The position numbers and the translations under genes are program-made. Below are positions 7,956-50,923 of a stretch of 64,000 nt of DNA, in pieces (the first letter of the stretch is position 1; every line of letters starts with the position of its first letter). The DNA is from Pseudomonas sp. SCB32 (lineage in GTDB: Bacteria; Pseudomonadota; Gammaproteobacteria; Pseudomonadales; Pseudomonadaceae), in NCBI RefSeq assembly GCF_009189165.1, contig NZ_CP045118.1:1302001-1366000 (forward strand). The letters are read 5' to 3'. Under the pieces are notes generated by a model that searched no databases, had not been told where the DNA came from, and saw only the letters and a program-made list of their open reading frames with translations.

Positions 7956-9988
7956 CTGCGCCGCTGAAAACCGCCAGTGAAATGCTCGAACTGATCGGCC
8001 GCTGGGCCGAGCGTGGCTGGCTGCGCGAACTCGACCGTGCCTTCGCGACCTTCCTGGTGGAACGCGCAGCGGATGCACATCCGCTGCTGATCCTGGCGGC
8101 CGCGCTGGCCAGCCACCAGCTCGGTCGTGGCCACGTCTGCCTGGACCTTGAAGCCACCCTGGCGGACAGCCGGTTCGCGCTGTCATTGCCGCCGGAGGGG
8201 GATTCCGCCAAGGACTCCCCCGAACTGCCTGACGTGCTGCTCGACGGCATGGCGCTCGATGCCTGGCAGGCCGCGCTGAACGACCCACGCCTGATCGGCG
8301 AGGGCGCCGGCGATACGCCGCTGGTGCGTGTCGGTCGGCGCCTGTACCTGCGGCGCTACTGGCAATACGAATGCGCGGTGCGCGCCGGCATCGACCAGCG
8401 CCTGCTCCAGGGTGAGGCATTGCGTGCGGGGTTGCCCGCCGCGCCGTTGCGCCAGGCACTGGACGCACTGTTCCCGAAGAAGGCTGGAGCACCGGCGGAT
8501 TGGCAGAAGATGGCCTGCGCACTGGTGGCCGGGAACGCCTTCGGCATCGTCACCGGCGGCCCCGGCACCGGCAAGACCACTACGGTGGTCAAGCTGCTGG
8601 CACTGCTGCAAAGCCTGGCGCTGGGGGAGGGCGGGCGACCGCTGCGCATCCGTCTTGCGGCGCCAACCGGCAAGGCTGCCGCACGGCTGAACGAATCCAT
8701 CGCAGGCGCCGTGCAGCGCCTGCAACTCGATGGCCTGCCCAATGGCGAGGCCGCGCGCGAAGCGATCCCTACCGAAGTCACCACACTGCACCGCCTGCTC
8801 GGCAGCCGCCCGGACAGCCGCCAGTTCCGCCACCATGCTGGCAACCCGCTGGCGCTGGAGCTGCTGGTGGTGGACGAAGCCTCGATGGTCGACCTGGAAA
8901 TGATGGCCTCGCTGCTCGCCGCGCTGCCGCCGCGCGCGCGCCTGATCCTGCTCGGCGACAAGGACCAGCTGGCCTCCGTGGAGGCCGGCGCGGTGCTCGG
9001 CGAGCTGTGCAGTCGGGCTCGTGAAGGGCATTACCGCCCAGCCACTCGCGACTGGCTGGAGGCGGTGACCGGAGAGCACATCGATCCGGCGCTGCTGGAC
9101 GAGCAGGGCAGCGACCTCGACCAAGCCGTGGCCATGCTCCGTCACAGCCACCGTTTCAGCGCCGCCAGCGGCATCGGCCAGTTGGCGGAAGCGGTGAATG
9201 CCGGCGACATCCCGGCCTTGCGCGAGGTATGGAAGGCCCGTCACGAAGACCTGACCCGCATCGCCGTGGATACTCAGGACACCCGCAATCTGCGTGGTCT
9301 GGTGGTGGACGGCGGACGCGGCGGCGACCTGTTCGGGCCGGTCGGCTATCGCCATTACCTCGGCGTGCTGGCCGCCAGGCGGCCGCGTGAGAGTGCCGAC
9401 CAGGCAGCACTGGATGACTGGGCCCGGCAGGTGCTGGAAGCCCACGGGCAGTTCCAGCTGCTCTGTGCCCTGCGTCGCGGACCTTGGGGCGTCGAGGGCC
9501 TCAATACACTGATCACCGAGCTGCTGCACAGCGAGGGGCTGATTCCCTCGACACACGCCTGGTTCCTCGGTCGCCCAGTGCTGGTGACGCGCAACGACTA
9601 CGGCCTGGGGCTGATGAACGGCGATATCGGCATCACCCTGGCGCTGCCGCAGGCGGCGGATGACGGCAGCGTGCGCTGGGTGCCGCGCGTGGCCTTCCCG
9701 GCAGGCGACGGCAGCGACGCCATCCGCTGGATTCTGCCCAGCCGCCTGCAGGCGGTGGAGACGGTGTTCGCCATGACGGTGCACAAGTCCCAGGGTTCGG
9801 AATTCACCCACGCCGTCTTGCTGCTGCCCGACAGCCTCAACCCCATCCTCACCCGCGAGCTGGTCTACACCGGCATCACCCGCGCCCGGCGCTGGTTCAC
9901 CCTGGCCAGCGCCGGGCGCGGCTGGCAGGTGCTGGAGCAGGCAACCGAACGACGGGTGCAGCGGGCGAGCGGCTTGCTGGAGAGCTGA
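7952..9988 (+). CDS. recD: Exodeoxyribonuclease V subunit alpha (RecD helicase)
   Basis: RecD is the fast 5'-3' SF1B helicase of RecBCD. The 678-residue product has Walker A GGPGTGKTTT (K208), Walker B VVDEASMVD, and the late motifs MTVHKSQGSEF and YTGITRARR. Length is a little above the usual 600-650. It is last in the recCBD operon, and its ATG overlaps the recB stop. No obvious rho-independent terminator follows; the next 700 bases hold dispersed repeats. Confidence 0.97.
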   Translation: MTAPLKTASEMLELIGRWAERGWLRELDRAFATFLVERAADAHPLLILAAALASHQLGRGHVCLDLEATLADSRFALSLPPEGDSAKDSPELPDVLLDGMALDAWQAALNDPRLIGEGAGDTPLVRVGRRLYLRRYWQYECAVRAGIDQRLLQGEALRAGLPAAPLRQALDALFPKKAGAPADWQKMACALVAGNAFGIVTGGPGTGKTTTVVKLLALLQSLALGEGGRPLRIRLAAPTGKAAARLNESIAGAVQRLQLDGLPNGEAAREAIPTEVTTLHRLLGSRPDSRQFRHHAGNPLALELLVVDEASMVDLEMMASLLAALPPRARLILLGDKDQLASVEAGAVLGELCSRAREGHYRPATRDWLEAVTGEHIDPALLDEQGSDLDQAVAMLRHSHRFSAASGIGQLAEAVNAGDIPALREVWKARHEDLTRIAVDTQDTRNLRGLVVDGGRGGDLFGPVGYRHYLGVLAARRPRESADQAALDDWARQVLEAHGQFQLLCALRRGPWGVEGLNTLITELLHSEGLIPSTHAWFLGRPVLVTRNDYGLGLMNGDIGITLALPQAADDGSVRWVPRVAFPAGDGSDAIRWILPSRLQAVETVFAMTVHKSQGSEFTHAVLLLPDSLNPILTRELVYTGITRARRWFTLASAGRGWQVLEQATERRVQRASGLLES

Positions 9989-13277: not shown

Positions 13278-14534
13278 ATGCACGACTACGCCCCCCAGGC
13301 CCTGCGCGACGTAGTGGACGACGTCTACCGCCGCGAATCGCGCCGTGTGCTGGCCACGCTGATCCGCCTGCTGGGTGATTTCGACCTGGCCGAGGAAGCG
13401 CTGCACGAAGCCTTCGTCGCCGCGGTGGAGCAGTGGCGGCGCGATGGTGTGCCGGCCAATCCACGTGCCTGGCTGGTATCCGCCGGGCGCTTCAAGGCCA
13501 TCGACGGCCTGCGCCGCCGCTCGCGTTTCGACGCCTCGCTGCTGCAGATCGCCGAGCAACTGGAAGTCGACGCGCAATCGGTGGAGGAGCAGGCCGACGA
13601 GAGCGTCGAGGACGACCGCCTGCGCCTGATCTTCACCTGTTGCCACCCGGTGCTGGCGGCGGACGCCCAGGTGCCGCTGACCCTGCGCGAGGTCTGTGAC
13701 CTGAAGACCGAGGAGATCGCCCGCGCCTACCTGGCCACGCCGTCCACCATCGCCCAGCGCATCGTCCGCGCCAAGGCGAAGATCCGCGATGCGCAGATTC
13801 CCTACCAGGTGCCGGAAGCCGCCGAGTTGCCCGAGCGCCTGGCCAGCGTGCTGCGGGTGATCTACCTGGTGTTCAACGAAGGCTACTCGGCTTCGGCGGG
13901 TGATTCGCTGACCCGCACCGACCTCTCCGCCGAGGCCATACGCCTGGGCCGCCAACTGCTCGAACTGCTGCCGGAAGCGGAAGTGATGGGGCTGCTGGCG
14001 CTGATGTTGCTGCACGAGTCGCGGCGTGAGGCGCGTACCGTCGAGGACGGCGAATTGGTGCTGCTGGAAAATCAGGACCGCACGCGCTGGAACCGTGCGC
14101 TGATCGAAGAGGGCCAGCAACTGATTGCTGCCGCGCTCGCTACCCGGCGTGTCGGCCCCTACACCTTGCAGGCTGCCATTTCCGCGGTGCATGCCGTCGC
14201 GCCGGACATGGCCTCTACCGACTGGGCGGAAATCGTCGGACTCTACGACCTCCTGCTGGCAGTGCAGCCTTCGCCGGTGATCGAGCTCAACCGCGCAGTG
14301 GCGCTGGCCATGCGTGACGGCCCAGAGGCCGGTCTGCAGAAGGTGGACGTCATCCTTGCCCGAGGCGAGCTGCAGGACTACCACCTGGCCCACGCCGCCC
14401 GCGCCGACTTCTGCCGGCGCCTGGGGCGGCGCGAGGAGGCCCGAGCGGCTTATCAGCGAGCGCTTGAACTCGCGCGGCTGGAGCCTGAACGGAGATTCCT
14501 GGAAGGGCGCATCCAGGCGCTCGAAACCTGCTGA
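13278..14534 (+). CDS. ECF42-group RNA polymerase sigma factor with C-terminal TPR-like extension
   Basis: An unusually long ECF sigma factor of 418 residues. The sigma-2 region (about 10-80) contains FDLAEEALHEAFVAAVEQW and AWLVSAGRFKAIDGLRRR. Sigma-4 (about 120-175) contains RLIFTCCHPVL and LKTEEIARAYLATPSTIAQRIVRAK. The 230-residue extension has YLVFNEGY and VIELNRAVALAM, typical of ECF42. Known ECF42 factors have no anti-sigma partner and need this extension. The gene follows the DGPF operon it probably controls. Its own upstream region has only a poor ECF42-type match, so autoregulation is not supported. Confidence 0.9.
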   Translation: MHDYAPQALRDVVDDVYRRESRRVLATLIRLLGDFDLAEEALHEAFVAAVEQWRRDGVPANPRAWLVSAGRFKAIDGLRRRSRFDASLLQIAEQLEVDAQSVEEQADESVEDDRLRLIFTCCHPVLAADAQVPLTLREVCDLKTEEIARAYLATPSTIAQRIVRAKAKIRDAQIPYQVPEAAELPERLASVLRVIYLVFNEGYSASAGDSLTRTDLSAEAIRLGRQLLELLPEAEVMGLLALMLLHESRREARTVEDGELVLLENQDRTRWNRALIEEGQQLIAAALATRRVGPYTLQAAISAVHAVAPDMASTDWAEIVGLYDLLLAVQPSPVIELNRAVALAMRDGPEAGLQKVDVILARGELQDYHLAHAARADFCRRLGRREEARAAYQRALELARLEPERRFLEGRIQALETC

Positions 14535-14659
14535 AGCCGTCTCGGGAACAGCTCCCTTAGGGGGGCTGGAGAGGGTCTCTAGGACTATTCGGTCCGACAG
14601 AAAACGGTGCAATGCCTTTTCTGTTTGAGGGATTTCCTACGGTATCACCAGACTTTTCA

Positions 14660-14688
14660 CGACAAGTTCTTCGCTACGATTCTTGTCG
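14660..14688. promoter_or_regulatory. Inverted repeat upstream of the PKS operon
   Basis: CGACAAG (14660-14666) and CTTGTCG (14682-14688) flank 15 bases in the 297-base gap before the PKS gene. It could be an operator or a leader hairpin. No confident -35/-10 pair was identified in this gap. Confidence 0.3.
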
Positions 14689-14831
14689 CCTGCCAGGGCC
14701 ATACAAGCTCTTCCTGTCGCGGGCTTCCTCCGTCCTCGCTCCACCGATCAGCGTATCGCTGACTGCTCGCAGACTCTGCAGCGCAAGTGCGAGGGGGGCA
14801 TCAATCCCAGAGATAGTTACGAGAGTTTCAC

Positions 14832-17800
14832 ATGTACCAGGTTGGGCAATCCCACTCTTGCAATCCGGATGGAAAGATCGCCGTCATCGGCTCGGCCTGC
14901 CGTTTCCCTGGCAAGTCCCATTCCCCCGAGTTCTTCTTCGAACAGCTTCTGGCAGGTCGTACCTGCGTAGGCCCGGTTCCCGAGGGCCGCTGGGCCGCGG
15001 AAAAATTCACCAACACCCGCGATGTCGCCGGCAAGGCCTACGTCGCCCGCGGTCACTTCCTGGAAGACTACGACTTCCGCACCTTCGACGCTGACTTCTT
15101 CCGCCTTTCCCCTCGTGAGGTCGAGTTCCTCGACCCGCAGCAGCGCCTGCTGCTCGAGCTTTCCTGGGAAGCCATGGAAAACGCCGGCCTGGACGTCGAG
15201 GCACTGGCCGGCTCGCGTACCGGTGTCTTCGTCGGTGGCTTCACGGTCGATCACCTGCTCAACCAGTTCGGTTCCAGTGCGCGTGACTCGATCGGTTCCC
15301 ACAGTGCGGCGGGCGCGACCCTGACCATGCTGTCCAACCGCATTTCCTACGCCTTCGACTTCTGTGGCCCGAGCCTCTCCATCGACACCGCCTGTTCGTC
15401 GTCGCTGGTGGCGCTGGCCCAGGGCGTGACCGCGATCAGCGCGGGGCAGTGCGAAATGGCGCTGATCGGCGGTGCCAACTTCATGCTGCGGCCGGAGTAC
15501 AGCATCGCCATGTCCAAGGGCCGCTTCCTGGCTCGCGACGGCCGCTCCAAGAGCTTCGACGCCCGCGCCGATGGCTACGGCCGCGGTGAAGGCGGTGGCA
15601 TCGTGATTCTCAAGGATTACGCCGCGGCTTTGCGTGACGGCGATGAGATCCTCGCCATCATCGAGGGCGCCGGGGTGAACCAGGATGGCCGCACCAGCGG
15701 CATCACCGTGCCCAATCCGGAGGCCCAGCGTGCCCTCATGGAGGACGTACTCGCCGCCAGTGGTTGCACCGCCGAAGACATCGACTACATCGAGGCCCAT
15801 GGCACCGGCACTCCGGTGGGCGATCCCCGCGAAACCAGCGCCATCGCCCAGGTCTACGGGCGCGACGGGCACTGCGTGGTCGGTTCGGTCAAGGCGAACA
15901 TCGGTCACCTCGAGGCCGCCGCCGGCATGGCCAGCGTGATCAAGTCGCTGATGATGCTGCGCCACGGCGTCATTCCGCCTGTGGCCGGGCTCGAGGAAGT
16001 CAATCCCGAGATCCCCGCGCAGGTTTCCCTGCCGCGCTCTGTCATTCCGCTGGGGAGCACGGAGCGTCAACGGCGCATCGCGATCAACTCGTTCGGCTAC
16101 GGTGGCACCAACGCTCACGTGATCATCGGGTCTGCACCGCAGGCCGCCGGGCCGGACGCGAACAACGTTTCCGCGGCATCGGTCGCGGTACTGCCCGTCT
16201 CCGCCCGCGACGGCAAGGCGCTGCGCGAGCGCGCCGGGCAGTTGGCGACACTGCTCGAAAGCGAACCGGCGACGGCTCTGGAAGATGTGCTGTACACCGC
16301 CGGTGTGCGTCGTACCCACCTGGACCACCGCCTGGCCGTGTCGGGCGAGAGCCGAGAGGAGCTGGCCGCGCACCTGCGCAGCTTCGCCGCCGGCGAGGCG
16401 CCGGAAGCGGGCAGCGAGGGTATTCGCCCGTTCAAGGGTGATGGCCGTATTGCCTTCGTCTACACCGGCATGGGGCCGCAGTGGTGGGCGATGGGTCGCG
16501 AACTGCTGCGCGAGAATGCGCTGTTCCGCCAGGCCCTGGAGCGGGCCGATGCGATCTTCCGGAATATCTCCGGCTTCTCGATCCTGCAGGAAATGCTGCG
16601 TGAGGAAGGCGCGTCGCAGATCAAGCGCACCGAGTTCGCCCAACCGGCCAACTTCATGATCCAGTACGGCCTGACCGACGTGCTCAAGGCCGAAGGCATC
16701 GAGCCTGACTCGGTGATCGGCCATTCCGTGGGCGAAGTGGCCTCGGGCTGGGCTTCGGGCATGCTGTCGCTGGAGGATGCGCTGCGGGTCAGCTACCACC
16801 GTAGCCGCATCCAGGCCACCACCGCCGGTACTGGCGGCATGTTGGCCCTCGGCCTGTCCATGGAGGATGCCGCCGAGCTCATGGCGCCCTACGCGCAGGC
16901 CGTATCCTTCGCTGCGATCAACTCGCCCGGCAGCGTGACGCTGGCCGGCGACCGCGAGGCCCTGGAGTGCATCCGTCAATCGGCTACCGAGCGCGGCGTG
17001 TTCGCCCGCGCACTGGATGTCGAAGTTCCGTACCACAGCCCGCTGATGGAGCCGCTCAAGCCGGCCCTGCGCGATGCACTGGCTCAGCTGCGGCCAGTAC
17101 ACCCGCATATCGACCTGTATTCCACGGTAACCGGCGGCCTGATCGGCGCTCCGGGCGGCGAGCGTTTCTATGACGCCGAATACTGGTGCGACAACGTCCG
17201 TAACCCGGTGTATTTCGCCGATGCCATCTCGGCAATGATCGACGACGGCCACACGCTGTTCGTCGAGGTGGGACCGCACCCGGTGCTGCGCCGCTCCCTG
17301 GAGGAGATCGCCGCAGCCAAGGGCACCGAGATCCGCACCGTGTCGACCCTGTGGATGAACCGCCCGGAAACTCGCGCGCTGCGTCTCGCCATCTGCGACA
17401 TCTATGCGCAGGGTGGTGCCGTCGACTGGGCCGCACGTACTCCGCAAGGTCGCCTGGTCGAGATGCCCGGCTACCCCTGGCAGCGTCAGCTGCTATGGCG
17501 CGAGAGCCGCACGCAGGAGCGTGATCGACTGGCCGTCGAGCAGGCTCCGCTGAGCGTTGCCGCCGGTGGCGCCGACCTCAATCTGCAGCGCCTGAACTAC
17601 CTGTTCGACCACGTGGTCGACGGCGCCCCGATCATGCCCGCTGCCGGGTATCTCGAAACCTTGTGCGAGGAAGCCCGCCGGTTCTGGCCGGAACAGGCAG
17701 GTGTGCAGTTGCGTGATGTGCGGATTCATCAGGCGCTGGTCCTGGACCATGACCGTGCGCTGCGTCTGGACATCAGCCTCGATCCGCTCTCGCAGCGAGC

Positions 17801-20800
17801 TCGACTGACCTCCCGCACCAATGAAGAGCCTCAGGCAGCGGTGTTGCATGCCGAAGCGTCCCTGTATCCCTGTGCGGGCAAGGTGCCTGTCGCACGAATC
17901 GCCGCTCCCGCGGGGATGGCTGTGGAAACGCTGGAGGCGCACGAACTTTATGTCGGCCTGCGCGAGCTGTCGCTGCAATATGGTCCGGCCTTCCAGTCCA
18001 TCGTGGCACTGCAGCGCGATCGCATCGCCAAGCGGGCCGAGGCCCGACTGTGCCGACCGGCGGACGCGGGCGAGGGTGCCGAACACTATGTGCTGCACCC
18101 GTCCCTGCTCGATGGCTGCTTCCAGGTTGCATTGACCCTGCTGGGTGACGAGGACGGCGCTTACCTGCCCGTTTCCCTCGCGGCCCTGGAGGTCTATCGC
18201 AACCTGCCCGAGGAGATCATCTGCCGTGCGCAGGTGGTCAGCCAGGATGAGGCGCAGATCATCTGCGACTTCGAACTGAGCGATCCGCAGGGCCAACTCC
18301 TGGCACGCATCGACGGTTTGTCGTGCCGTGCACTGCGCGGTGCCGCGCGGCACGACGAGTTCCCGGCGGGCGACTACCAGCGCACCTGGGCGCAATTGCC
18401 CGAAGCCATCGGCCAGGGCCGGCAGGCCGGCCGCGTGCTGGTACTGGGCGAGTGTGACGATGAGCTGGCCGATAGCGTTGCGGCGGATGTCGAGGCACTC
18501 GGCCTGGTCAGTGACCGATGCGGCTGGAGCGAGCTGGCGGGCTATCCGCGCTTGGCTGAAGTCCAGCGGGTCATCGGTTTCTCGCTGGCCGGCTGCGCGG
18601 CCTCGGACGATTTCACCGGCGAGCACGACATCGCTGAGATGCTCCAGGCGGTACAGGCACTGTCCGCCCAGGCACGGGACCTCCCCCTGCTGATGGTCAC
18701 GCGCAATGCCCATGCAGTCTCTGACGACGAGCAGGTGATTCCGGCGCAAGCGGCCATCGCCGGGTTCATGCGCGTGGTCCGTAACGAATTCGCCCAGCTG
18801 CGGCAGACCCTGGTCGATGTCCAGGCCGATGCCAACGGAGCCTTGCCCTCTGTCGACCGTGCAGCGCTGCTCGATGTCCTGATCGCCGAGCGGCTGATCG
18901 ACGAAATCGCCCTGCGCGCCGGCCGTCCGTATGGGGCCAAGCTGGTGCAAAGTGGCTGGCTGCAGGCGCCGGCGAAAGTGACGGTATCCGCTGCCAGCGG
19001 AGTCGAACTGTCCTTGCAGGCTGGTCGCTACACCGCGCGGGTACTGCCCCGTCAGTCGTTGCCGGAGGATGCTTACGAGCTGGAAGTCGAGCGTCTGGCC
19101 TTGCAGCATGGCGCGCAAGACCAACCCGTCGGCGTAGTGGGCGTCATCGTTCGCGCCGGTTCGCGTGCGGCTCGCTTCCCTGTGGGGATGCGTGTGGCCG
19201 GCCTGGTGCCGCGCCGGATCGCCAGCCGGATGATCGTCGATGAGAGCATTGCGCTGCTGGAGCCTGTTTCCGGGGCCGGGGCGTCCGCGCTGTGTGCGCC
19301 GGTGGAAGTCCAGGCGCTGGAAATCGTTCGCCGCGCCGTGATGGCGCAGGGGGCGCGAGCCATGGTGGTGGACGGTGCGCTGGGCGATGCCCTCAGCCGA
19401 CGTCTGGAAGCCGATGGCGTCGTGGTCGAACGCGTCAGCGCAGACCTGTCCGACTGGCGTCGTGACAACCGTGACGGCTCGTTCGACATGATGGCCGGTC
19501 CACTGGCCCAATGGGGCCGTCTCACCGGGTTCTTCCCGCTGGCGAAAGGCGGGCAACTGGTCGATCTCGACCGGGGAACCGCACCCATCGGCGTGCCGCC
19601 GCAGTGCGGCCAGCTGGTCCGACTGAGTAGCGACCTGTCGCACCTGGTCGAGGACGAAGGCTACCGGGCCAGCCTGCAGAACCTGCTGGCCGCTCCGGCG
19701 CCGAGCCTTGCCGAGCCTCAGCTGAGGATTGCCGAGCTGCTGGCGGAGGAGGGCGTCGAATTGCCGGTGGCGCTGCTGGCCGGAGACTGGGTCGAATTGC
19801 GGGTGCGTGACGACGAGCGCGAGTTCGTCGCAGAGGCTTCGGATCTTCCGCTCTTCCGGTCGGCCGGTGTCTACCTGGTCACCGGTGGTTTCGGCGGACT
19901 GGGCTGCGCGGTTGCCCGCTGGCTGGCGGCCAATGGTGCCGGGCATGTCGCCCTGGTCGGCCGTCGTGGCCTGGACACTCCCGGTGCGGTCGAGCTGCTC
20001 GACGAGCTTCGCGCCCTCGGGGCCCAGGCCAGTGCTCACGCGCTGGACGTCGCCGACACCACTGCGGTCGCTGCCCTGGTACGTGAGCTGCATCGTCCCG
20101 GACGTCCGCTGCTGGGTATCTATCACGCCGCTGGCGTGCTGGAAGATCGCCTGCTGATGCAGATGCAGCCCGATCAGCTCTCCCGCGTCATGCAGCCCAA
20201 GACCCTGGGCGCCTGGGCATTGCACGAGGCCGCGCAGGATTGCGGCGCGCCGCTGGAGCAGTTCGTGCTGTTCTCCTCCATCGCTGCCTTGGTGGGCAAC
20301 AGCCGCCAGGCGAACTACTGCGCCGCCAACGGCTACCTCGAAGGCCTTGCGCAGCTGCGTCGGCACCAGGGGCAGGTTGCCCTGGCGGTGAATTTCGGCG
20401 CCATCGCCGGCGTCGGCATGCTGGAAAGCGATGCCCGCATCGCCCAGCACCTGACCCAGATCGGCTTGCCGCCGCTGCCGGTACAAACCGCGCTGCGCGG
20501 ACTGGGACGTGCACTGGTGCACGGCCTGGAGCAGGTGGCGATCTCCGCGGCTGCCGACTGGGGCCGTTGGGCCTCCTATGAAAGCGTGGGTGGCACCTGC
20601 GCCACCTTCGCCGACCTGATCGCCGCCAGCCGAGCATCCAGCGGCCGGGACGGCTCGCTGGTCGAGCAGCTGCACGCTGCCTTGCGTGGCGTGGAGGCCA
20701 GCGAGGCCATGGCGATCCTGCAGGAGCTGATCACCGGTGTCGTCGCCTCGGGCCTCAAGACCACTCCCGAGCGTTTGCGCGCGGACCAGTCCTTCGACTC

Positions 20801-20969
20801 CCTCGGCATGGACTCGCTGATGTCGACGGATATCCAGCTGCAGCTGGAGCAGAAGCTGGGCGTCACCTATTCGGTCATCGAACTGTTGGGCGCTTCCACC
20901 ATTGGCAAGCTCACCGAGCGCGCGCTGATTCAGATTCACGAGGGCGCCGACGGTTCGGCAGCACTCTAA
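14832..20969 (+). CDS. Iterative type I polyketide synthase (KS-AT-DH-psiER-KR-ACP)
   Basis: A single-module PKS of 2045 residues. KS (about 14-440) has C188 in DTACSSS, H323 and H359. AT (about 540-850) has S632 in GHSVGE and VPYHSP at the specificity site, suggesting malonyl. DH (about 880-1180) has H927 in HVVDGAPIMP and D1094. A structural KR half and an ER-like segment (about 1390-1660) follow; the ER lacks a recognisable NADPH glycine motif. KR (about 1680-1880) has TGGFGGLG, S1816, Y1829 and N1833. The ACP carries S1995 in GMDSL. There is no thioesterase, so release probably falls to the next gene. With DH and KR intact and ER probably dead, a polyene or partly reduced chain is expected. 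Confidence 0.93.
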   Translation: MYQVGQSHSCNPDGKIAVIGSACRFPGKSHSPEFFFEQLLAGRTCVGPVPEGRWAAEKFTNTRDVAGKAYVARGHFLEDYDFRTFDADFFRLSPREVEFLDPQQRLLLELSWEAMENAGLDVEALAGSRTGVFVGGFTVDHLLNQFGSSARDSIGSHSAAGATLTMLSNRISYAFDFCGPSLSIDTACSSSLVALAQGVTAISAGQCEMALIGGANFMLRPEYSIAMSKGRFLARDGRSKSFDARADGYGRGEGGGIVILKDYAAALRDGDEILAIIEGAGVNQDGRTSGITVPNPEAQRALMEDVLAASGCTAEDIDYIEAHGTGTPVGDPRETSAIAQVYGRDGHCVVGSVKANIGHLEAAAGMASVIKSLMMLRHGVIPPVAGLEEVNPEIPAQVSLPRSVIPLGSTERQRRIAINSFGYGGTNAHVIIGSAPQAAGPDANNVSAASVAVLPVSARDGKALRERAGQLATLLESEPATALEDVLYTAGVRRTHLDHRLAVSGESREELAAHLRSFAAGEAPEAGSEGIRPFKGDGRIAFVYTGMGPQWWAMGRELLRENALFRQALERADAIFRNISGFSILQEMLREEGASQIKRTEFAQPANFMIQYGLTDVLKAEGIEPDSVIGHSVGEVASGWASGMLSLEDALRVSYHRSRIQATTAGTGGMLALGLSMEDAAELMAPYAQAVSFAAINSPGSVTLAGDREALECIRQSATERGVFARALDVEVPYHSPLMEPLKPALRDALAQLRPVHPHIDLYSTVTGGLIGAPGGERFYDAEYWCDNVRNPVYFADAISAMIDDGHTLFVEVGPHPVLRRSLEEIAAAKGTEIRTVSTLWMNRPETRALRLAICDIYAQGGAVDWAARTPQGRLVEMPGYPWQRQLLWRESRTQERDRLAVEQAPLSVAAGGADLNLQRLNYLFDHVVDGAPIMPAAGYLETLCEEARRFWPEQAGVQLRDVRIHQALVLDHDRALRLDISLDPLSQRARLTSRTNEEPQAAVLHAEASLYPCAGKVPVARIAAPAGMAVETLEAHELYVGLRELSLQYGPAFQSIVALQRDRIAKRAEARLCRPADAGEGAEHYVLHPSLLDGCFQVALTLLGDEDGAYLPVSLAALEVYRNLPEEIICRAQVVSQDEAQIICDFELSDPQGQLLARIDGLSCRALRGAARHDEFPAGDYQRTWAQLPEAIGQGRQAGRVLVLGECDDELADSVAADVEALGLVSDRCGWSELAGYPRLAEVQRVIGFSLAGCAASDDFTGEHDIAEMLQAVQALSAQARDLPLLMVTRNAHAVSDDEQVIPAQAAIAGFMRVVRNEFAQLRQTLVDVQADANGALPSVDRAALLDVLIAERLIDEIALRAGRPYGAKLVQSGWLQAPAKVTVSAASGVELSLQAGRYTARVLPRQSLPEDAYELEVERLALQHGAQDQPVGVVGVIVRAGSRAARFPVGMRVAGLVPRRIASRMIVDESIALLEPVSGAGASALCAPVEVQALEIVRRAVMAQGARAMVVDGALGDALSRRLEADGVVVERVSADLSDWRRDNRDGSFDMMAGPLAQWGRLTGFFPLAKGGQLVDLDRGTAPIGVPPQCGQLVRLSSDLSHLVEDEGYRASLQNLLAAPAPSLAEPQLRIAELLAEEGVELPVALLAGDWVELRVRDDEREFVAEASDLPLFRSAGVYLVTGGFGGLGCAVARWLAANGAGHVALVGRRGLDTPGAVELLDELRALGAQASAHALDVADTTAVAALVRELHRPGRPLLGIYHAAGVLEDRLLMQMQPDQLSRVMQPKTLGAWALHEAAQDCGAPLEQFVLFSSIAALVGNSRQANYCAANGYLEGLAQLRRHQGQVALAVNFGAIAGVGMLESDARIAQHLTQIGLPPLPVQTALRGLGRALVHGLEQVAISAAADWGRWASYESVGGTCATFADLIAASRASSGRDGSLVEQLHAALRGVEASEAMAILQELITGVVASGLKTTPERLRADQSFDSLGMDSLMSTDIQLQLEQKLGVTYSVIELLGASTIGKLTERALIQIHEGADGSAAL

Positions 20970-20986
20970 CAACGAGATAAGGAACC

Positions 20987-22288
20987 ATGCCTCAAACGAA
21001 AAAGAAACTGGAGGAACTGCTGGGCAAAGTGCGTTCGAGCATCGGTTGCCAGCAGGCACCTGCGGCCACCTACAAGCCGGTGCCGCCCTCCCTGAGCGAC
21101 TATCCCGAGCACGCGCTGCTGCAGAGCATGCAGCAGCTCTACCGCGAGGGCAGTGGCCTGCGCAATCCCTACTTCCTCCCGCGCAGCGCGGAGGTCGGCG
21201 GCACCTTGCGCATCGAGGAGAAGGATTACATCACCTTCTCCAACTACAACTACCTCGGGCTGTCCCATGATCCCCGGGTGCGGCAGGCCGTGCACGAGGC
21301 CGTGGATCGCTACGGCTGCCACGCCGGTGCCGCCCGCATGGTCGGCGGCGAGATCGAACTGCACGCGCAGCTGGAGGCCGAACTGGCCGATTTTACCGGC
21401 TTCGAGGATGCACTGGTGTCCGTTGGCGGCTACAGCACCAACGTGGCGGTGATCGGTTATCTGCTCGATCGCCGCGACCTGATCCTGCACGACGAGTACA
21501 TGCACAACAGCGGCCTGATGGGCGCGGTCATGTCCGGCGCCCGTCGCATCGCCTTCCCGCACAACGACATGGATGCTCTGGAGCGCCTGCTGCGCGAGCA
21601 CCGCTCGCAGCATCGCCGCACGCTGATTGTGGTCGAAGGTGCGTACAGCATGGACGGCGACCTGGTCGACCTGCCGCGTGTGGTGGAGCTCAAGCAGCGC
21701 CACGGCGCCTGGCTGATGGTCGACGAGGCGCACTCCTGCGGCACCGTCGGTGCCACCGGCCGTGGCGTATGCGAGTACTTCGGCGTCTCGACCTCGGACA
21801 TCGACCTGATGATGGGGACCCTGTCCAAGAGCTTCGCCAGCTGTGGCGGTTTCCTCGTCGGCCGGCGCGAGCTGATCGATCTGCTCCGGCATTTCTGCCC
21901 GGGCCTGTTGCTGTACAGCACGGGTATCAGCCCGGCCAACGCGGCGGCGGCACTCGCCGCCCTGCGTCTGATGCGCGAGGAGCCGGAGCGCGTCGCGAAG
22001 CTGCAGAACAACGCGCGACGCTTCCGCGAACTGGCCATCGCCAACGGCCTGGATTGCCGCACGGCGGTGCCGGGCGTACCGATCGTACCGCTGATGATCG
22101 ACAACGACGGCGCCTTGAAACTCATGTCGCGACTCTTCGAGAACGGCGTAATCGCTCATGCCGTCATGCATCCGGTGGTTCCTCGCGACGCGGCGCGGCT
22201 GCGTTGCTTCATCAGTGCCGAGCACGACGAGGCAATGATCCAGCGCACCCTCGAACTGATCGTCGCCTGCACGACACATCAACCCTGA
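20987..22288 (+). CDS. PLP-dependent alpha-oxoamine synthase (class II aminotransferase fold)
   Basis: A 433-residue member of the family that includes BioF, KBL, HemA and serine palmitoyltransferase. These enzymes condense an acyl thioester with an amino acid, with loss of CO2, to give an alpha-amino ketone. Visible features are the SNYNYLGLS motif, GCHAGAARMVGG, D246/H249 in DEAHS and the Schiff-base lysine K281 in LSKSFASCGG. A 70-residue N-terminal extension precedes the fold. It lies 17 bases after the PKS, which has no thioesterase, so it probably releases the chain from the ACP as an amino ketone. The amino acid used is unknown. A biotin role is unlikely in this context. Confidence 0.9.
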   Translation: MPQTKKKLEELLGKVRSSIGCQQAPAATYKPVPPSLSDYPEHALLQSMQQLYREGSGLRNPYFLPRSAEVGGTLRIEEKDYITFSNYNYLGLSHDPRVRQAVHEAVDRYGCHAGAARMVGGEIELHAQLEAELADFTGFEDALVSVGGYSTNVAVIGYLLDRRDLILHDEYMHNSGLMGAVMSGARRIAFPHNDMDALERLLREHRSQHRRTLIVVEGAYSMDGDLVDLPRVVELKQRHGAWLMVDEAHSCGTVGATGRGVCEYFGVSTSDIDLMMGTLSKSFASCGGFLVGRRELIDLLRHFCPGLLLYSTGISPANAAAALAALRLMREEPERVAKLQNNARRFRELAIANGLDCRTAVPGVPIVPLMIDNDGALKLMSRLFENGVIAHAVMHPVVPRDAARLRCFISAEHDEAMIQRTLELIVACTTHQP

Positions 22289-22318
22289 CCTGAAACCTCA
22301 CTCAAAGGAAATCTTCCC

Positions 22319-23122
22319 ATGACTCTCCGTCACCTTGCGGTGGCCGGTGCTCTGCTCGGCTGCCTGACTTTCCAATGCCAGGCCGATACCGCTACCGACA
22401 ACCGTGCCCGCGGCCTGGAAATCGCCCGTACCGTGGACAGCCACGATGCCGGCTTCGTCGACTATGTGGTCGACGGCCGCATGACCCTCAAGCGCCCAGG
22501 CGGTGCCACCGCCGAGCGCGGCTTCCGCATGAGCACGCTGGAAGTCCGCGATGGCGGCGACAAGCGCATCGTGGTGTTCTCGCAACCGCGTGACCTGGCT
22601 GGCTTCGTCTCGCTGACCTACGCCAATACCGCCGCTGCCGATGACCAGTGGATCTACCTGCCCGCCACCAAGCGCGTGAAACGCCTGGCTGCGCGGGACA
22701 AGACCGGCTCGTTCGCCGGCTCCGAGTTCTCCTACGAGGACATTTCCACCTGGGAGCTGGGCAACTACGACTACGAATTCATCAAGGAAGAACCCTGCGG
22801 TACACCGGCGACCACTTGCTACACCCTGGCCAACCTGCCCAAGTACGAGTACTCGGGATATTCGAAGCTGGTCGAAACCATCGATCCGCGCATCTGGCAA
22901 CCGGTGCGCATCGTCTATTCCGACAAGACCGGTCGTGAGCTCAAGAAGCTGGAGTTCTTCGACTACAAGCAGTACGGCAAGCACTGGCGCCCCTCGCGTA
23001 TCGTCATGACCAACCTGCGCGATGGTGCCGAGTCGGAGATCGTCTGGAGCGATTACCGCTTCGGCACTGGCTTGAAGGCCGCCGACATGACCGATAGCCG
23101 TCTGAGCTCCTGGTCGCGATGA
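22319..23122 (+). CDS. LolA-like outer membrane lipoprotein-sorting family protein
   Basis: A 267-residue periplasmic protein with a signal peptide (about residues 1-22). The body matches the LolA-like family often paired with MMPL transporters: ARGLEIARTVDSHDAGFVDY near the start, ADDQWIYLPATKRVKRLAA in the centre and a C-terminal W-D-Y-R-F-G pattern. Such proteins have an open hydrophobic barrel that can carry lipids. Here it probably shuttles the PKS product across the periplasm. The stop overlaps the next start by four bases. Confidence 0.82.
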   Translation: MTLRHLAVAGALLGCLTFQCQADTATDNRARGLEIARTVDSHDAGFVDYVVDGRMTLKRPGGATAERGFRMSTLEVRDGGDKRIVVFSQPRDLAGFVSLTYANTAAADDQWIYLPATKRVKRLAARDKTGSFAGSEFSYEDISTWELGNYDYEFIKEEPCGTPATTCYTLANLPKYEYSGYSKLVETIDPRIWQPVRIVYSDKTGRELKKLEFFDYKQYGKHWRPSRIVMTNLRDGAESEIVWSDYRFGTGLKAADMTDSRLSSWSR

Positions 23123-24327
23123 TCGATTCCTCGAAACGGCCGTACCTGCTGGGCTGCTCCGCGCTGCTCTGCCTGCTCATCCACGATGCCGCGCGTGCTG
23201 ACGTGCGCGGCGTCGTGGGGGCGGAATTGAGCTTCTACCGGAAGTCACCGCAGTACCCGGGGCAGAGTGGCGATCGTCAGCAGGGTGCCCTGCATGCCGG
23301 GCTGATCGCAGGGGGCAGGACCGCACAGGACCTGCTCTACGACGTGGAGCTGCATGCCCGGCACAAACCGACGGCGGCCCGTGTCGACTCCGGTGATGTC
23401 CGTCAGGCCACCATCGGCAGGAACACCGAGCAGGTCGAGTGGTCGGCGGGCGTGCTGGCCGAGAGCTGGGGAACGCTGGAGGCGTACAACCCGGTGGACA
23501 TCATCAACCAGCGTGACCAGGACGAGGACTTCCGCGGCAAGGTCAAGCTGGGCCAACCGGGCGCCAAGGCGTCCGTGCGGCTGAATGACGATACCCAATT
23601 GACGTTGTATGGCACCACCTACGCTCGCGAACGTCGCTACGCCGAAGGTGGCGAGCGTAATCAGTTGCTCCCTGCGCCCGTGCGCCACAGCAAGTTCGAA
23701 GACGGGAATCTGTCGCCGGAGGTCGCGGCCCGCGTGCAGCACCGGGCGACAGAAAACCTGGATGTCGCAGCGTCCTATTTCGTCGGCCACTCGCGTGAGC
23801 CGCTGCTCACGCCATTGCTCGGCCCCAAGGGGCTCGAAGGCTTCGATGCCTACTACGAGAAGGAGCAACAGGCCGGCTTCGAGGCCCAGTACGTGGTGGG
23901 CGACAGCGTTCTCAAGAGCGAGGTGGTTCACCGCGATGCCGCTTCCGACAAGTCCTGGGGCGGTGGCGTGGGGATCGAGACCACCTTCAGCAAGCTCGCA
24001 GGCGGGGTCGGTGATCTGTCCACCTATCTCGAACTGTACGGCGACACCCGCTCCGACAAGGCTCCGACCACTCCGATGGATCATGACCTCTATGCCGGTA
24101 TGCGTTACGCGCGCAACGATCCACGGGGAACGGTGTTCGAGCTGCAATTCACCCATGACTTCGAATGGAAGTCCGAACTCATCCAGCTCAATGCCTCGCA
24201 GCGTGTCTTCGAAGACACGGTGGTGACCACCTCGCTCCTGGTGCCTCAACGCACCCAGGACGATCCGGCACTCACGGGGCTTTCCAATGATGTCCAGTTG
24301 ACGGTCGGCGTGAGCTGGTACCGCTGA
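23119..24327 (+). CDS. Outer-membrane beta-barrel protein (DUF1302-like) of the PKS operon
   Basis: A 402-residue protein with an N-terminal signal (cleavage near ARA-DV, about residue 28) and alternating amphipathic strands such as LYDVELHARH, TQLTLYGTTY and EFTHDF-like segments, ending in GVSWYR. This fits an outer-membrane barrel. The VEWSAGVLAESWGTLEAYNPVDIINQRD segment resembles DUF1302/DUF1302-like barrels found with RND/MMPL exporters. It overlaps the LolA-like gene, so the two are probably translated together. Likely role: outer-membrane exit or insertion point for the product. Confidence 0.7.
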   Translation: MIDSSKRPYLLGCSALLCLLIHDAARADVRGVVGAELSFYRKSPQYPGQSGDRQQGALHAGLIAGGRTAQDLLYDVELHARHKPTAARVDSGDVRQATIGRNTEQVEWSAGVLAESWGTLEAYNPVDIINQRDQDEDFRGKVKLGQPGAKASVRLNDDTQLTLYGTTYARERRYAEGGERNQLLPAPVRHSKFEDGNLSPEVAARVQHRATENLDVAASYFVGHSREPLLTPLLGPKGLEGFDAYYEKEQQAGFEAQYVVGDSVLKSEVVHRDAASDKSWGGGVGIETTFSKLAGGVGDLSTYLELYGDTRSDKAPTTPMDHDLYAGMRYARNDPRGTVFELQFTHDFEWKSELIQLNASQRVFEDTVVTTSLLVPQRTQDDPALTGLSNDVQLTVGVSWYR

Positions 24328-24343
24328 CAAGAGAGATTTACCT

Positions 24344-26722
24344 ATGACGATCGAACCAGGCGCTGCCGTTGCCCACGAGCACGGCCCGCAAAACAGGCGC
24401 GAAGCGATGATGCACGCATACGCCGACTGGGTTACCGGCAAGCCCTGGCGAACGGTGCTGCTGGCGCTGCTGGTGATGCTGGCGCTGGCCTCGGGCCTGA
24501 GCCATCTGACCTTCCGCAGCGATAACCGGGTCTTCTTCGGTGAAGACAACCCGGACCTGATCGCCCTCGATCAGTTCGATGCCACCTACGGCCGCGACGA
24601 TACCCTGCTGTTCGTGGTGACAGCGCGCGACGGTGACCTGTTCACGCCGGAGCGCCTGAAGGCTCTCAACGAACTGACCGATGCCGCCTGGACCCTGCCC
24701 GAGGCCAAGCGGGTCGATTCGCCCACCAACTTTCAGCGTGCGCAGGCGGTCGGGGATGACATCAACATCGACCAGCTTGCCCGTTCCGGCGATGTGCTCA
24801 GCGACACCGATGCCCGGCGCCTCAAGCAGGAGGCTGCGCTGGAGCCATTGCTGATCGACCGGCTGTTGTCCCGCGATGGCCGCACCGCCATGGTGGCGGT
24901 GAGCTTCCTGTTCGACCCGGTGAAAGTCTCCGACCAGACCCTGGCAGCCATGGCGGCCGGCCAGAAAATCAACGATGCCTTCGCCCTCAAGCATCCTGAC
25001 CTGGAAGTCGGACTGTCCGGCTCCGTGGCGCTGGACGACGCCTTCGTCGTGGCCAGCACCTATGACAGCGCCGTGCTGCTGCCGATCATGGTGGTCGTGC
25101 TGCTGGGCATCATCGTCGTTGCCATCCGCTCGTTCGCCGGCGCGCTGGCGACTTTCTGCGTGGTGATCCTCGGCACCCTGAGCGCACTCGGGACGTCGGC
25201 GCTGATGGGTATTCCGCTGTCCTCGCCGAGCGTAGCGGCGCCGAACATCATCCTGACCATCGCCTGCTGCGACTGCATTCACCTGTGTTCCGGGATGATG
25301 CGGCTGCGCCGCGAGGGGCTGAGCCGCCGCGACGCGGTCCGCGAAATCCTGATCGAATGCGGCTGGCCGGTGACGCTGACCACCATCACCACGGCCATCG
25401 GCTTCCTCTCCATGGTCTTCAGCGCGGTGCCGCCGTTCGCCCATCTGGGCGTGATCGTGGCGCTGGGTTCGGTGCTGGCCTGGTTCCTGACCATGACCTT
25501 CCTGCCCGCGCTGTTGTGCATCCTGCCGTGGAAAGGGCCGTCCCGCGCGATGCCGGCGGAAATGCTCAGCCTGCGAGTGGCCGAGATGGTGATGAAGCGA
25601 CCGGGCAAGGTATTGGCCGGGGTGGGGCTGGTGGCCGTGGTGTTGTCGTCACTGGCGTTCTCCAACACGCTCGATGACCGCTACGTGCGCTACTTCGATG
25701 GCAGCTTCGCCTTCCGTCAGGCAACCGACCGTCTGAACCACGACCTGGGCGGCTTCTACACCCTGGAGTTCTCTCTGGACTCCGGCGAGGACGACGGGAT
25801 CGTGCAACCCGAATACCTGGCCGAGGTGGACCGTTTCGCCGACTGGTTGCGCCAGCAGCCGGGAGTGACCCATGTGCATGGCCTGCCCGACATCATGAAA
25901 ACCATCAACCGTGCCATGAATGGCGGCGGCCAGGATGAGTACCGGCTGCCCGCGGCGCGCGACGTCACGGCGCAGTTCCTGGCGCTGTATGAGATGTCGT
26001 TGCCCTTCGGGACTGACCTCAAGAACCAGCTCACCGCCGACAAGCGCTACAGCCGGCTGAGTGTCAGCCTGGGGGATGTCTCCACGGCGTCGATGGCCGA
26101 CCTGCAGGTGCGCGCCGAGCAGTGGGCGCGCGCGAACACTCCGCTGATCGCCGACTCGGCCCGCGCCACCGGTACCTCGCTGCTGTTCGCCCATATCGGC
26201 AACCGCAATATCGAGGAAATGTACGTCGGCATCTTCAGCGGCATCCTGGTGGTCTGGGTGATCTTCGTGATCGCCTTCCGTTCCGTTGGCTTGAGCCTGA
26301 TCGGCACCATCGCCAATACCGTGCCGTCCCTGGCCACGCTGGGGGCCTGGGCGCTGGTCAACGGTGAGGTCGGGATGGCTGTGGCGACGGTGGCATCGGT
26401 CACCTTCGGCGTCATCGTCGATGACACCATTCACATGCTCTCGACCTATGCGCGCCTGCGCCGCCAGGAAAAACTGTCGCCGGAAGACGCGGTACGCGGC
26501 GCGTTCCGCACGGTGGGGCCGGGTATGATCGCGATGACCCTGGCGCTGTCCTCGGGGTTTGCCTGCCTGACTTTCTCAGGGTTCCAGATCAATTCCTGGA
26601 TGGGGCTGATGGCCTCGATGACCATTCTCATCGCGGTGCTTTTCGACCTGCTGTTCATCCCCGCCGTGCTGCTGGTCTTCGCCAACTGGCGACGGTCCCG
26701 GGAGGCGGCCCTGGCGCCCTGA
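24344..26722 (+). CDS. MMPL/RND-superfamily transporter
   Basis: A 792-residue inner-membrane transporter with the RND layout: TM1 (about 38-56), a first periplasmic loop, TMs 2-6 with VVLLGIIVVAIRSFAG and SPSVAAPNIILTIACCDCIHL, a second loop, then TMs 8-12 containing VTFGVIVDDTIHMLSTY. The acidic residues D-D in TM10 match proton-relay positions. No membrane-fusion or TolC partner is nearby, which fits lipid-exporting MMPL/HAE-type members. It is last in the PKS operon, 16 bases after the barrel gene, and probably exports the amino-polyketide. Confidence 0.88.
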   Translation: MTIEPGAAVAHEHGPQNRREAMMHAYADWVTGKPWRTVLLALLVMLALASGLSHLTFRSDNRVFFGEDNPDLIALDQFDATYGRDDTLLFVVTARDGDLFTPERLKALNELTDAAWTLPEAKRVDSPTNFQRAQAVGDDINIDQLARSGDVLSDTDARRLKQEAALEPLLIDRLLSRDGRTAMVAVSFLFDPVKVSDQTLAAMAAGQKINDAFALKHPDLEVGLSGSVALDDAFVVASTYDSAVLLPIMVVVLLGIIVVAIRSFAGALATFCVVILGTLSALGTSALMGIPLSSPSVAAPNIILTIACCDCIHLCSGMMRLRREGLSRRDAVREILIECGWPVTLTTITTAIGFLSMVFSAVPPFAHLGVIVALGSVLAWFLTMTFLPALLCILPWKGPSRAMPAEMLSLRVAEMVMKRPGKVLAGVGLVAVVLSSLAFSNTLDDRYVRYFDGSFAFRQATDRLNHDLGGFYTLEFSLDSGEDDGIVQPEYLAEVDRFADWLRQQPGVTHVHGLPDIMKTINRAMNGGGQDEYRLPAARDVTAQFLALYEMSLPFGTDLKNQLTADKRYSRLSVSLGDVSTASMADLQVRAEQWARANTPLIADSARATGTSLLFAHIGNRNIEEMYVGIFSGILVVWVIFVIAFRSVGLSLIGTIANTVPSLATLGAWALVNGEVGMAVATVASVTFGVIVDDTIHMLSTYARLRRQEKLSPEDAVRGAFRTVGPGMIAMTLALSSGFACLTFSGFQINSWMGLMASMTILIAVLFDLLFIPAVLLVFANWRRSREAALAP

Positions 26723-26796
26723 CGGGCGACGTTGCCGCTGGCGCCTTGCAAGCGGAGCGCAGCGAAACCTTGCGGGTTTCGCTGCGAGGTCGAGCG

Positions 26797-27570
26797 TTAC
26801 AGGCTGCTCACCAGGTGCCCGCCATCCACCGCCAGCACGGCGCCGGTCATGAAGGCACCGGCGTCGCTGGCCAGCAGCAGGAAGGGGCCTTCCAGCTCCC
26901 TCAGCTGACCCAGGCGGCGCATGGGCACGGTATCGCGGATATAGGCCTGGCCCTTCTCGCTGTCGAAATAAGCGTCGTTCATTTCCGTCTTGAAGTAGCC
27001 CGGGGCGATGGCGTTGACGCGTACCTGGTAGCGCGCCAGTTCCAGCGCGAGGGACTTGCTCAGCTGCACCACGCCGGCCTTGGCCGCGCAGTAATGGCTG
27101 TAGCCCCCGCCCACCCGCAGGCCGAGGATCGAGGCGATGTTGACGATGCTGCCGCCGCGCTTCGCCTTGGCCAGGCGCTGCGCCGCGCACTGGGCCACGC
27201 GCCAGACACCGTCGAGGTTGGTGGAGAGCATGCTGCGCCAGTCGTCTTCTGTGATCTCCAGTGCACGCTGGCCGTTGCCGATGCCGGCGTTGTTCAGCAC
27301 TACCTCGACCACGCCGAACTGTGCCTCGGCGCTGTCGAAGGCGGCCTCGACGCTGGCGCGGTCGGTCACATCCAGCGCCACGGCGTGGGCTTCGCCGCTG
27401 TCGGCACGGATGGCTTCAGCCAGTTGCGACAGGCGCTCGGTGCGTCGTGCGGCCAGCACCACCCGCGCCCCGGCGCTGGCGGCGACGCGCGCCAGGTGGG
27501 CGCCGATGCCGCTGGAAGCGCCGGTGATCAGCACGGTCTTGCCGGCCAGGGAGAAGAGGTCGTTGCTCAT
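26797..27570 (-). CDS. SDR family NAD(P)-dependent oxidoreductase
   Basis: A classical short-chain dehydrogenase of 257 residues with TGASSGIG (16-23), NNAG at about 93, and catalytic S147, Y160 and K164 in YSHYCAAK. It also has the usual C-terminal FMTGAVLAVDGGH. The substrate is unknown. It is convergent with the PKS operon, 74 bases away, so it may or may not serve that pathway; a reductase acting on a 3-keto or amino-ketone product is only a possibility. AAAGGTG precedes the ATG. Confidence 0.88.
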   Translation of the reverse strand: MSNDLFSLAGKTVLITGASSGIGAHLARVAASAGARVVLAARRTERLSQLAEAIRADSGEAHAVALDVTDRASVEAAFDSAEAQFGVVEVVLNNAGIGNGQRALEITEDDWRSMLSTNLDGVWRVAQCAAQRLAKAKRGGSIVNIASILGLRVGGGYSHYCAAKAGVVQLSKSLALELARYQVRVNAIAPGYFKTEMNDAYFDSEKGQAYIRDTVPMRRLGQLRELEGPFLLLASDAGAFMTGAVLAVDGGHLVSSL

Positions 27571-27722
27571 GGCTGCACCTTTGTCAGAGAGCGAAATCGC
27601 TGGTCGACAAGGTTAGCCCGAGGCGCCCTCAAGGGCGTGCAGGGTTAGCCATTCGCAGCACGAATGAGCGGGAGCGACTGGCTTCTCGCGGGGAGAACTG
27701 TGTCTGGGCTTCTCCCTCACCC

Positions 27723-49446: not shown

Positions 49447-50202
49447 ATGGCCACGCACCCCCTCGCCACCCGTGAACAATGGCTGGCGGCACGCCTGGAA
49501 CTGCTCGACGCGGAAAAGGCCCTGACCCGCCAAAGCGACGAACTCGCCCGCCGGCGCCAGGCGCTGCCCTGGGTCAAGGTCGACAAGGCCTACCGCTTCG
49601 ACACGGCGGACGGCCCTTCCACCCTGGCCGACCTGTTCCAGGGGCGTTCGCAACTGCTGGTCTACCACTTCATGTTCGGCCCCGACTACAGCGCCGGCTG
49701 CCCCTCCTGCTCGGCCATCGTCGACGGCTTCGACGGCAGCGTCGTGCACCTGGCCCATCATGACGTGACCCTTTGCGCGGTTTCCCGCGCACCGCTGGAG
49801 AAGCTGCAGGTCTACCAGCGACGCATGGGCTGGCGCTTCCCCTGGGTCTCCTCGAAGGGCAGCGACTTCAACTTCGACTTCAACGTCGCCTTCACCCAGG
49901 AACAGCAGCGCGCCGGCACCATCGACTACAACTACGGCCGCCGCGAGCCGGCCCTCGACGTCTCACGCATCCCTGAAACCATGACCCGCTTCGCCGCCCG
50001 CTGCGGCACCGACGCTCCGACCTTCGCCCGCGAGCGGCCGGGCCTGAGCACCTTCATCCGCGAGGACGGTGTCATCTACCACTGCTACTCCACCTATGCG
50101 CGCGGGCTGGATGCGCTGTGGAGCATGTACACCTGGCTGGACCGGGCGCCGCTTGGGCGCAACGAGCACGGCCTCTGGTGGCGGCGGCATGATGAATATT
50201 GA
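49447..50202 (+). CDS. DUF899 family (thioredoxin-like) protein, paralogue
   Basis: A 251-residue DUF899 protein, with VYHFMFGPDYSAGCPSCSAIVDG, SRAPLEKLQVYQRRMGW, SKGSDFNFDFNV and LDRAPLGRNE. The CPSC pair is a possible redox site; the paralogue at 11800 has CEGC in the same place. Function unknown. No ECF42-type promoter precedes it, so it seems to be regulated differently, perhaps by the divergent HTH protein. Confidence 0.86.
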   Translation: MATHPLATREQWLAARLELLDAEKALTRQSDELARRRQALPWVKVDKAYRFDTADGPSTLADLFQGRSQLLVYHFMFGPDYSAGCPSCSAIVDGFDGSVVHLAHHDVTLCAVSRAPLEKLQVYQRRMGWRFPWVSSKGSDFNFDFNVAFTQEQQRAGTIDYNYGRREPALDVSRIPETMTRFAARCGTDAPTFARERPGLSTFIREDGVIYHCYSTYARGLDALWSMYTWLDRAPLGRNEHGLWWRRHDEY

Positions 50203-50225
50203 ATGTGGTGGGGGATAAAAGCACA

Positions 50226-50254
50226 AAACCCCGAGAGCGCGGTGCTTTCGGGGA
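50226..50254 (-). terminator. Possible terminator between convergent genes
   Basis: CCCCGA (50229-50234) and TCGGGG (50248-50253) enclose 13 bases. On the minus strand the stem is followed by TTTTGTG. The remaining sequence to 50458 holds no evident gene. Confidence 0.5.
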
Positions 50255-50866: not shown

Positions 50867-50923
50867 TAGGTAAGCCTTTTGTAAAAGGGGGATAGATATA
50901 TTTTTCCTGCCCTTATTTGGGCC

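Follow-up and report, generated by a model that had tools for sequence, protein, structure and literature searches.

A five-gene operon of Pseudomonas sp. SCB32 probably directs the synthesis of an amino ketone that resembles sphingolipids but is unusual and unsaturated, and its carriage to the outer membrane. The operon occupies positions 14832-26722 of the window, as we term the whole 64,000-nucleotide stretch of DNA analysed, and its genes encode a polyketide synthase (PKS), an alpha-oxoamine synthase (AOS), a LolA-like carrier, an outer-membrane beta-barrel and an MMPL transporter. The original prediction stands in part: the tightly spaced set, including a single-module PKS without thioesterase, is real and all five genes are present and intact. 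It couples an enzyme pair like PfSgaAB, the PKS-AOS pair of P. fluorescens MYb115, to a transport module that is common but uncharacterised and for which we found no substrate named in the literature; with the enzyme pair tied to the module, the operon is a test case both for a new lipid and for the module's job. We rather favour movement of a PKS/AOS-derived amino ketone by the MMPL-LolA-barrel line, and judge the chances evenly balanced that the chain made by the PKS is a polyene.

Results

Layout and genomic setting of the operon

The first gene (14832..20969, + strand) encodes a type I PKS of 2045 aa, arranged KS-AT-DH-(degenerate ER)-KR-ACP and without thioesterase, as read from Pfam domains, catalytic motifs and a KS-AT tree. 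Downstream on the same strand are genes for a 433-aa PLP-dependent AOS of the SPT/BioF/Kbl superfamily (20987..22288), recognised by family matches and conserved PLP-site residues; a LolA-like periplasmic lipid carrier (22319..23122), which matches PF17131 (E 8.4e-47, 159.6 bits against a cut-off of 30) and whose N terminus, judged by eye, resembles a signal peptide; an outer-membrane beta-barrel of predicted OprD/AlgE fold (23119..24327); and a 792-aa MMPL/RND (HAE3-like) inner-membrane transporter (24344..26722), placed by family matches and an MMPL tree. Measured in 2-kb steps, the operon has a GC content of 0.64-0.68, similar to the DNA around it, and promoters and terminators found in 14000-27700 are as numerous as in shuffled sequence (1 against 1.2 and 6 against 6.1, respectively) and give no signal.

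The operon is flanked by an ECF sigma gene (13278-14534) and an SDR gene (26797-27570), 12268 bp apart in the window's genome. In 14 of 24 same-genus genomes these two genes are on one contig and 9-3188 bp apart, gaps being computed from the listed matches; in the other 10 the ECF sigma or SDR gene is missing, elsewhere, or on a separate contig. An AOS related at E 1e-95 is present in none of the 14. Since the flanking genes adjoin each other in genomes without an AOS at that threshold, the operon either arrived here or disappeared there as one discrete unit. The SDR was considered as the ketone reductase of the pathway and rejected: it neighbours the ECF sigma gene in operon-free genomes too, and is thus no pathway gene.

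Few exporter-type genomes turned up in the samples. An AOS related at E 1e-100 is found in 4 of 298 genomes sampled from the family, three of them of the SgaAB type, and export genes lie beside the AOS, within that sample, only in the window's own genome; a 369-genome sample of the class holds one exporter-type genome besides the window. Further carriers of related proteins, by name, are P. nitritireducens, P. nicosulfuronedens and Pseudomonas sp. M30-35.

Elsewhere in the window, three large overlapping ORFs lie upstream of the operon (784-9988, +); the first is RecC, and their sizes and order suggest recC-recB-recD, the last two being assigned by size only. GC content falls to 0.551 at 50001-52000, against 0.61-0.71 in the rest of the window (2-kb steps). 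This interval holds small ORFs at 50459-50866 and 50924-51451, the second without a Pfam family, and a search of it found no Rfam family.

PKS-AOS loci with and without export genes

We compared 94 AOS loci, 80 and 13 from two listings plus the window, the 80 being fewer than exist; many of the loci are cut short or have no PKS beside the AOS. The export triple occurs in seven: the window, Marinobacterium nitratireducens (L021), two gammaproteobacterial MAGs (L022 and L023), L107 (from genome G514), Thiomargarita nelsonii (L024) and Microbulbifer rhizosphaerae (L054). Gene order is PKS-AOS-LolA-barrel-MMPL in the window and L021, and PKS-AOS-MMPL-LolA-barrel in the other five; in all seven the genes share a strand, and no gap between them exceeds about 140 bp. 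As far as the stretches reach, no further gene family is common to the seven, and neither an ER gene nor a ketone-reductase gene is present in the operon or shared by these loci.

Among the loci listed, 30 are of what we take as the SgaA type, with a PKS of 2437-2625 aa, a full ER and an adjoining AOS. Export genes are found in 0 of the 28 that extend at least 5.9 kb downstream, about 2 kb being seen upstream; L077 and L094, with less than 2 kb downstream, were not counted. As stand-ins for the MYb115 locus, whose own sequence lay outside the comparison, we took L065 and L066 (Pseudomonas) and L111, L112 and L113 (same family), chosen by PKS-AOS adjacency, size and ER.

The PKS and its lost enoylreductase

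Aligned with its relatives, the window PKS has intact catalytic motifs in KS, AT, DH, KR and ACP; a Pfam scan found no loading domain. The linker between DH and KR (aa 1175-1690; 18354..19901, +) probably comprises the structural part of the KR and a remnant of an ER. An ER profile scores the window PKS at 9.1 bits, over aa 1435-1510 (76 residues), and the 30 SgaA-type PKSs among the loci listed, from which the profile was itself built, at 432-582 bits. Most exporter-locus PKSs are as poor as the window's (8.8 bits in L021, 9.7 in L107, 13.3 in L023, 15.7 in L022, no score in L054); L024 keeps 317 bits, and L117 210. Weak or partial ERs (8.6-68.9 bits) are seen in L025, L031, L086 and L044, all without export genes. 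ER loss and export genes are thus not strictly linked: L024 has ER and exporters, and these four loci show the reverse. The profile was run on 44 PKSs longer than 900 aa, shorter pieces of L040, L050, L070 and L080 being dropped. Pfam, which is independent of it, detects ER families in one SgaA-type PKS, that of L065, but not in the PKSs of the window, L021, L023 and L054.

Alignment locates the defect. The glycine-rich nucleotide loop of the 30 SgaA-type ERs among the loci listed reads GG[VI]G in 28 and GAVG in two; in nine PKSs (window, L021, L022, L023, L107, L054, L025, L031 and L086) it is replaced, with a two-residue gap. It is altered in L044, and kept as EGVG in L024 and as GAVG in L117. 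An initial regular expression missed the high-scoring ERs of L108, L087, L119 and L024, which the alignment shows to carry GAVG or EGVG; the window group carries neither. A predicted model of the linker, at a low-confidence pLDDT of 65.9, resembles DH-ER-KR regions such as 5bp4 and hints at relics of the ER fold.

The window PKS is shorter than the SgaA-type enzymes (2045 against 2437-2625 aa, among the loci listed), and shares 33-40% identity with them over roughly 1130-1310 aa. In a midpoint-rooted KS-AT tree from which the ER region was excluded, nine rows with lost or partial ER, from loci with and without export genes, fall on one side of a branch with SH-aLRT support of 99; the 30 SgaA-type PKSs, which bear an ER, group together with support of 92, the window apart from them. 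The tree holds 40 of the 44 PKSs, L022, L024, L038 and L119 having been dropped as short; L117, on a very long branch, groups with the PKSs without ER despite its 210 bits. The loss of the loop in nine related PKSs, together with this split, suggests that ER loss is long established in a lineage distinct from SgaA rather than recent decay in one strain. With KR and DH intact and the ER defective, unsaturated chains are predicted, and the polyene proposed at the outset as a possibility now has this defect behind it; a full polyene follows only if the window PKS is iterative, as stated for PfSgaA (PMC12134224).

The alpha-oxoamine synthase

The window AOS keeps PLP Lys281, stacking His173 and Arg406, and so shares the PLP lysine, stacking histidine, arginine and overall family of ThAOS, SPT, Kbl and BioF. 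The genus sample holds one further such AOS, in genome G006, and the two are 47% identical. The window enzyme departs from these families at the selectivity site: Ala116 stands where S. multivorum SPT has Ser81 and ThAOS has Val79. Ser81 is reported to touch the substrate carboxylate via water (PMC10196870), and Val79 to determine the choice of amino acid, which V79A broadens; SPT and AONS have Ser here, Kbl Val and ALAS Thr, unlike the Ala of the window clade (PMC11906848). Alanine is found in 29 of the 29 window kin examined, and serine in 30 of the 30 SgaB-type enzymes among the loci listed. The 29 are the window, L021, L022, L023, L107 and 24 proteins selected from a list of 120 AOS relatives, of which 25 were drawn on in the AOS comparisons. 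A Ser-Ala-Ser signature like that of SgaB, with Ser at the Ser81 position, is found in the AOSs of L024 and L054. Given alanine at the selectivity site, the serine use shown for PfSgaB should not be assumed for the window AOS, and on the evidence of this one site serine is not assured as its substrate. The alanine of structure 8s1y, considered as a natural parallel of the window pocket, was rejected: 8s1y is the engineered V79A ThAOS (PMC11906848), and the wild-type enzyme (7poa) has valine.

Exporter-locus AOSs do not form one clade, L054 and L024 lying apart; the fork that joins the window clade to that of L022, L023 and L107 has support of 84. This tree uses 85 of 123 rows, 38 having been removed by hand (near-duplicates, cut rows, and thinning of cyanobacteria and planctomycetes), and five of the nine outgroup rows are absent from it.

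Two further groups were seen among the listed loci. Five Streptomyces loci (L040, L051, L053, L067 and L097) have the AOS inside long ORFs (1517-2686 aa), where it is probably joined to PKS domains in one protein. L025, L031 and L086, from a planctomycete and two cyanobacteria, are ER-poor PKS-AOS pairs without the export triple whose AOS pocket signature is GSG; they form a third branch, of which we met no description.

The export genes

MMPL relatives at E 1e-60 occur in at least 113 of 339 sampled gammaproteobacterial genomes, a lower bound since three candidates were scored per genome, and the module must therefore have other uses. At 12 stand-alone places, hand-picked mostly from the best matches of this survey, the MMPL is 39-41% identical to that of the window; nine have a LolA-like gene and a barrel gene beside it and the other three have none at E 1e-4. 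No PKS or AOS match lies within roughly 11-16 kb around the 12. Of six upstream neighbours of stand-alone modules that were scanned, four encode TetR regulators and the other two match no Pfam family.

In the MMPL tree the window groups with L021, L022, L023 and L107 (96/93), and the Thiomargarita protein (L024) falls inside the stand-alone modules (100/98); L054 is long-branched and not placeable. This topology requires at least two changes of state, most simply read as two pairings of the export module with PKS-AOS; L024 also stands apart by the kind of its PKS and AOS. It suggests a common lipid-type transport module that PKS-AOS pairs have recruited, and it is chiefly the repeated pairing that points to the PKS-AOS product as the cargo. 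Relatives of the barrel follow the AOS: of 22 barrels with an identity of at least 43%, the window's included, eight apparently share a genome with an AOS relative. The lipid-type export line foreseen for the operon is upheld; by sequence its genes belong with a widespread module.

The window's genome holds five further pairs of MMPL relative and PF17131 match, near 2.81, 3.04, 3.22, 3.87 and 4.30 Mb, possible lipid-type transport sets; some of these PF17131 matches are below the family cut-off and probably DUF1329-like. An OprD-family porin (PF03573) is encoded 5 kb from the operon, at 31648-32976 (-), separate from the operon's OprD-fold barrel.

Discussion

A proposed pathway and its alternatives

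The PKS would act iteratively, its KS and AT adding what are presumably malonyl units; the KR would reduce and the DH dehydrate the growing chain. With its nucleotide-binding loop gone, the ER would be unable to perform enoyl reduction, so that the ACP-bound chain should stay unsaturated, most likely as a conjugated polyene. The PKS has no thioesterase, and the AOS would release the chain from the ACP through a decarboxylative condensation, presumably with an amino acid. Decarboxylative condensation is the reaction type of the AOS family, and PfSgaB fits it. The predicted product is a long-chain, unsaturated alpha-amino ketone, which the MMPL pump would extract from the inner membrane, the LolA-like protein ferry across the periplasm, and the OprD/AlgE-fold barrel receive or release at the outer membrane; fold, family and repeated co-location point to this direction and destination.

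KR and DH without ER would equally suit a PKS that extends a fatty acyl starter by only one or a few rounds, leaving the AOS to release an amino enone whose tail is saturated and which has a single double bond, and the window PKS has no loading domain that we could find. We think this unlikely, since PfSgaA is described as iterative (PMC12134224) and the window PKS is related to the SgaA type at 33-40% identity, although the KS-AT tree puts the two on opposite sides. An ordinary saturated sphinganine like those of PfSgaAB would result if a separate reductase supplied the enoyl reduction and the AOS used serine. Trans-acting ERs are known from fungi, and could fill such a role. The overall PKS-AOS logic is the same in both systems (PMC12134224), but the operon contains neither an ER gene nor a ketone reductase, no ER gene is common to the seven loci, the loop is lost from nine related PKSs, and the pocket residue separates all 29 window kin from all 30 SgaB-type enzymes listed; this outcome we hold to be improbable.

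Least credible to us, with only a slight chance of being right, is that the export genes handle a different substrate, or work in uptake, and that chance or co-regulation accounts for their place next to the PKS-AOS pair. The abundance of MMPL relatives (at least 113 of 339 genomes), the completeness of nine of the 12 stand-alone modules, and the rise of Thalassolituus TOL_3187/3188 on C28 alkane (PMC6304351) would all sit well with such a role. Against it, the MMPL tree is simplest with two or more PKS-AOS pairings, and all seven loci keep the genes on one strand and no more than about 140 bp apart. We therefore retain export of an unsaturated amino ketone as the preferred reading. A broader proposal is offered tentatively, at somewhat less than even chances: that a separate ER-less PKS-AOS lineage makes polyene amino ketones, pigment-like sphingoid lipids perhaps not built on serine, which a dedicated MMPL-LolA-barrel line delivers to the outer membrane, the same two modules having been joined at least twice. 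If true, an outer-membrane lipid pathway has evolved two or more times by joining the same parts.

Comparison with known systems

PfSgaAB, reported in 2025 as making C24-C28 sphinganines and most likely also phosphoglycerol sphingolipids, is claimed by its authors as the first PKS cluster with demonstrated sphingolipid synthesis, and they count 6,101 related putative clusters; PfSgaB has SPT activity with a strong preference for serine, PfSgaA is described as iterative, and SgaC is proposed as the KDS reductase in MYb115 (PMC12134224). The window likewise has a monomodular PKS directly followed by an AOS, with release as a long-chain amino compound as the common logic, and with this precedent the predicted release of the PKS chain by the AOS is a sound enzymatic reading (PMC12134224). 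The contention that no Pseudomonas pathway of this sort had been described holds for the gene order only, the PKS-AOS core being known from MYb115. Unlike the SgaA-type PKSs (full ER in 30 of the 30 loci listed), the window PKS has a dead-looking ER; unlike the SgaB-type enzymes, its AOS has Ala in place of Ser at the SmSPT Ser81 site; unlike MYb115 with its proposed SgaC, the operon has no 3-ketosphinganine reductase; and unlike the SgaA-type loci (0 of 28 among those listed), it has export genes. The available text of PMC12134224 contains neither 'export' nor 'MMPL', and one unrelated use of 'transporter'.

Aryl polyene clusters export their product through the LolA-like ApeL, the RND protein ApeM and the LolB-like ApeN (PMC8253772), and in both systems an RND protein and a LolA-like carrier are proposed to move a polyene to the outer membrane. 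The resemblance on which the prediction drew is one of kind, with a barrel in the place of ApeN; by sequence the window's export genes belong with the gammaproteobacterial MMPL-LolA_like-barrel modules. Aryl polyene chains are made by separate FAS-like enzymes and end in carboxylic acids, whereas the window has a type I PKS and an AOS: in place of a multi-gene set of separate KS, KR, DH, ACPs and acyl-ACP synthetase, we found one type I PKS.

RND proteins also work with periplasmic or outer-membrane lipid carriers for sterols (BstABC) and hopanoids (HpnN) (PMC10942540). The window has, like these, an MMPL-family transporter, here for a putative membrane lipid, but it falls far below both NCBIfam cut-offs (109 of 752 bits for HpnN, 20 of 1400 for BstA), and their partner proteins are described as belonging to other families (PMC10942540). 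The stand-alone gammaproteobacterial modules have the same three protein kinds side by side; these lack a PKS or AOS match in the stretches read around the 12 places and have TetR genes beside four of the six scanned, whereas the window has PKS and AOS genes. TOL_3187/3188 of the alkane degrader Thalassolituus, which rises on C28 alkane, is by description perhaps another such case (PMC6304351).

Among the open-access papers listed, judged by title and the opening of the abstract, we found no account of the five-gene set. In its resemblance to PfSgaAB the PKS-AOS core is a relative of a described kind; what appears new, as far as the literature found extends, is a lineage poor in ER, an AOS with a changed pocket, and an export line dedicated to the pathway.
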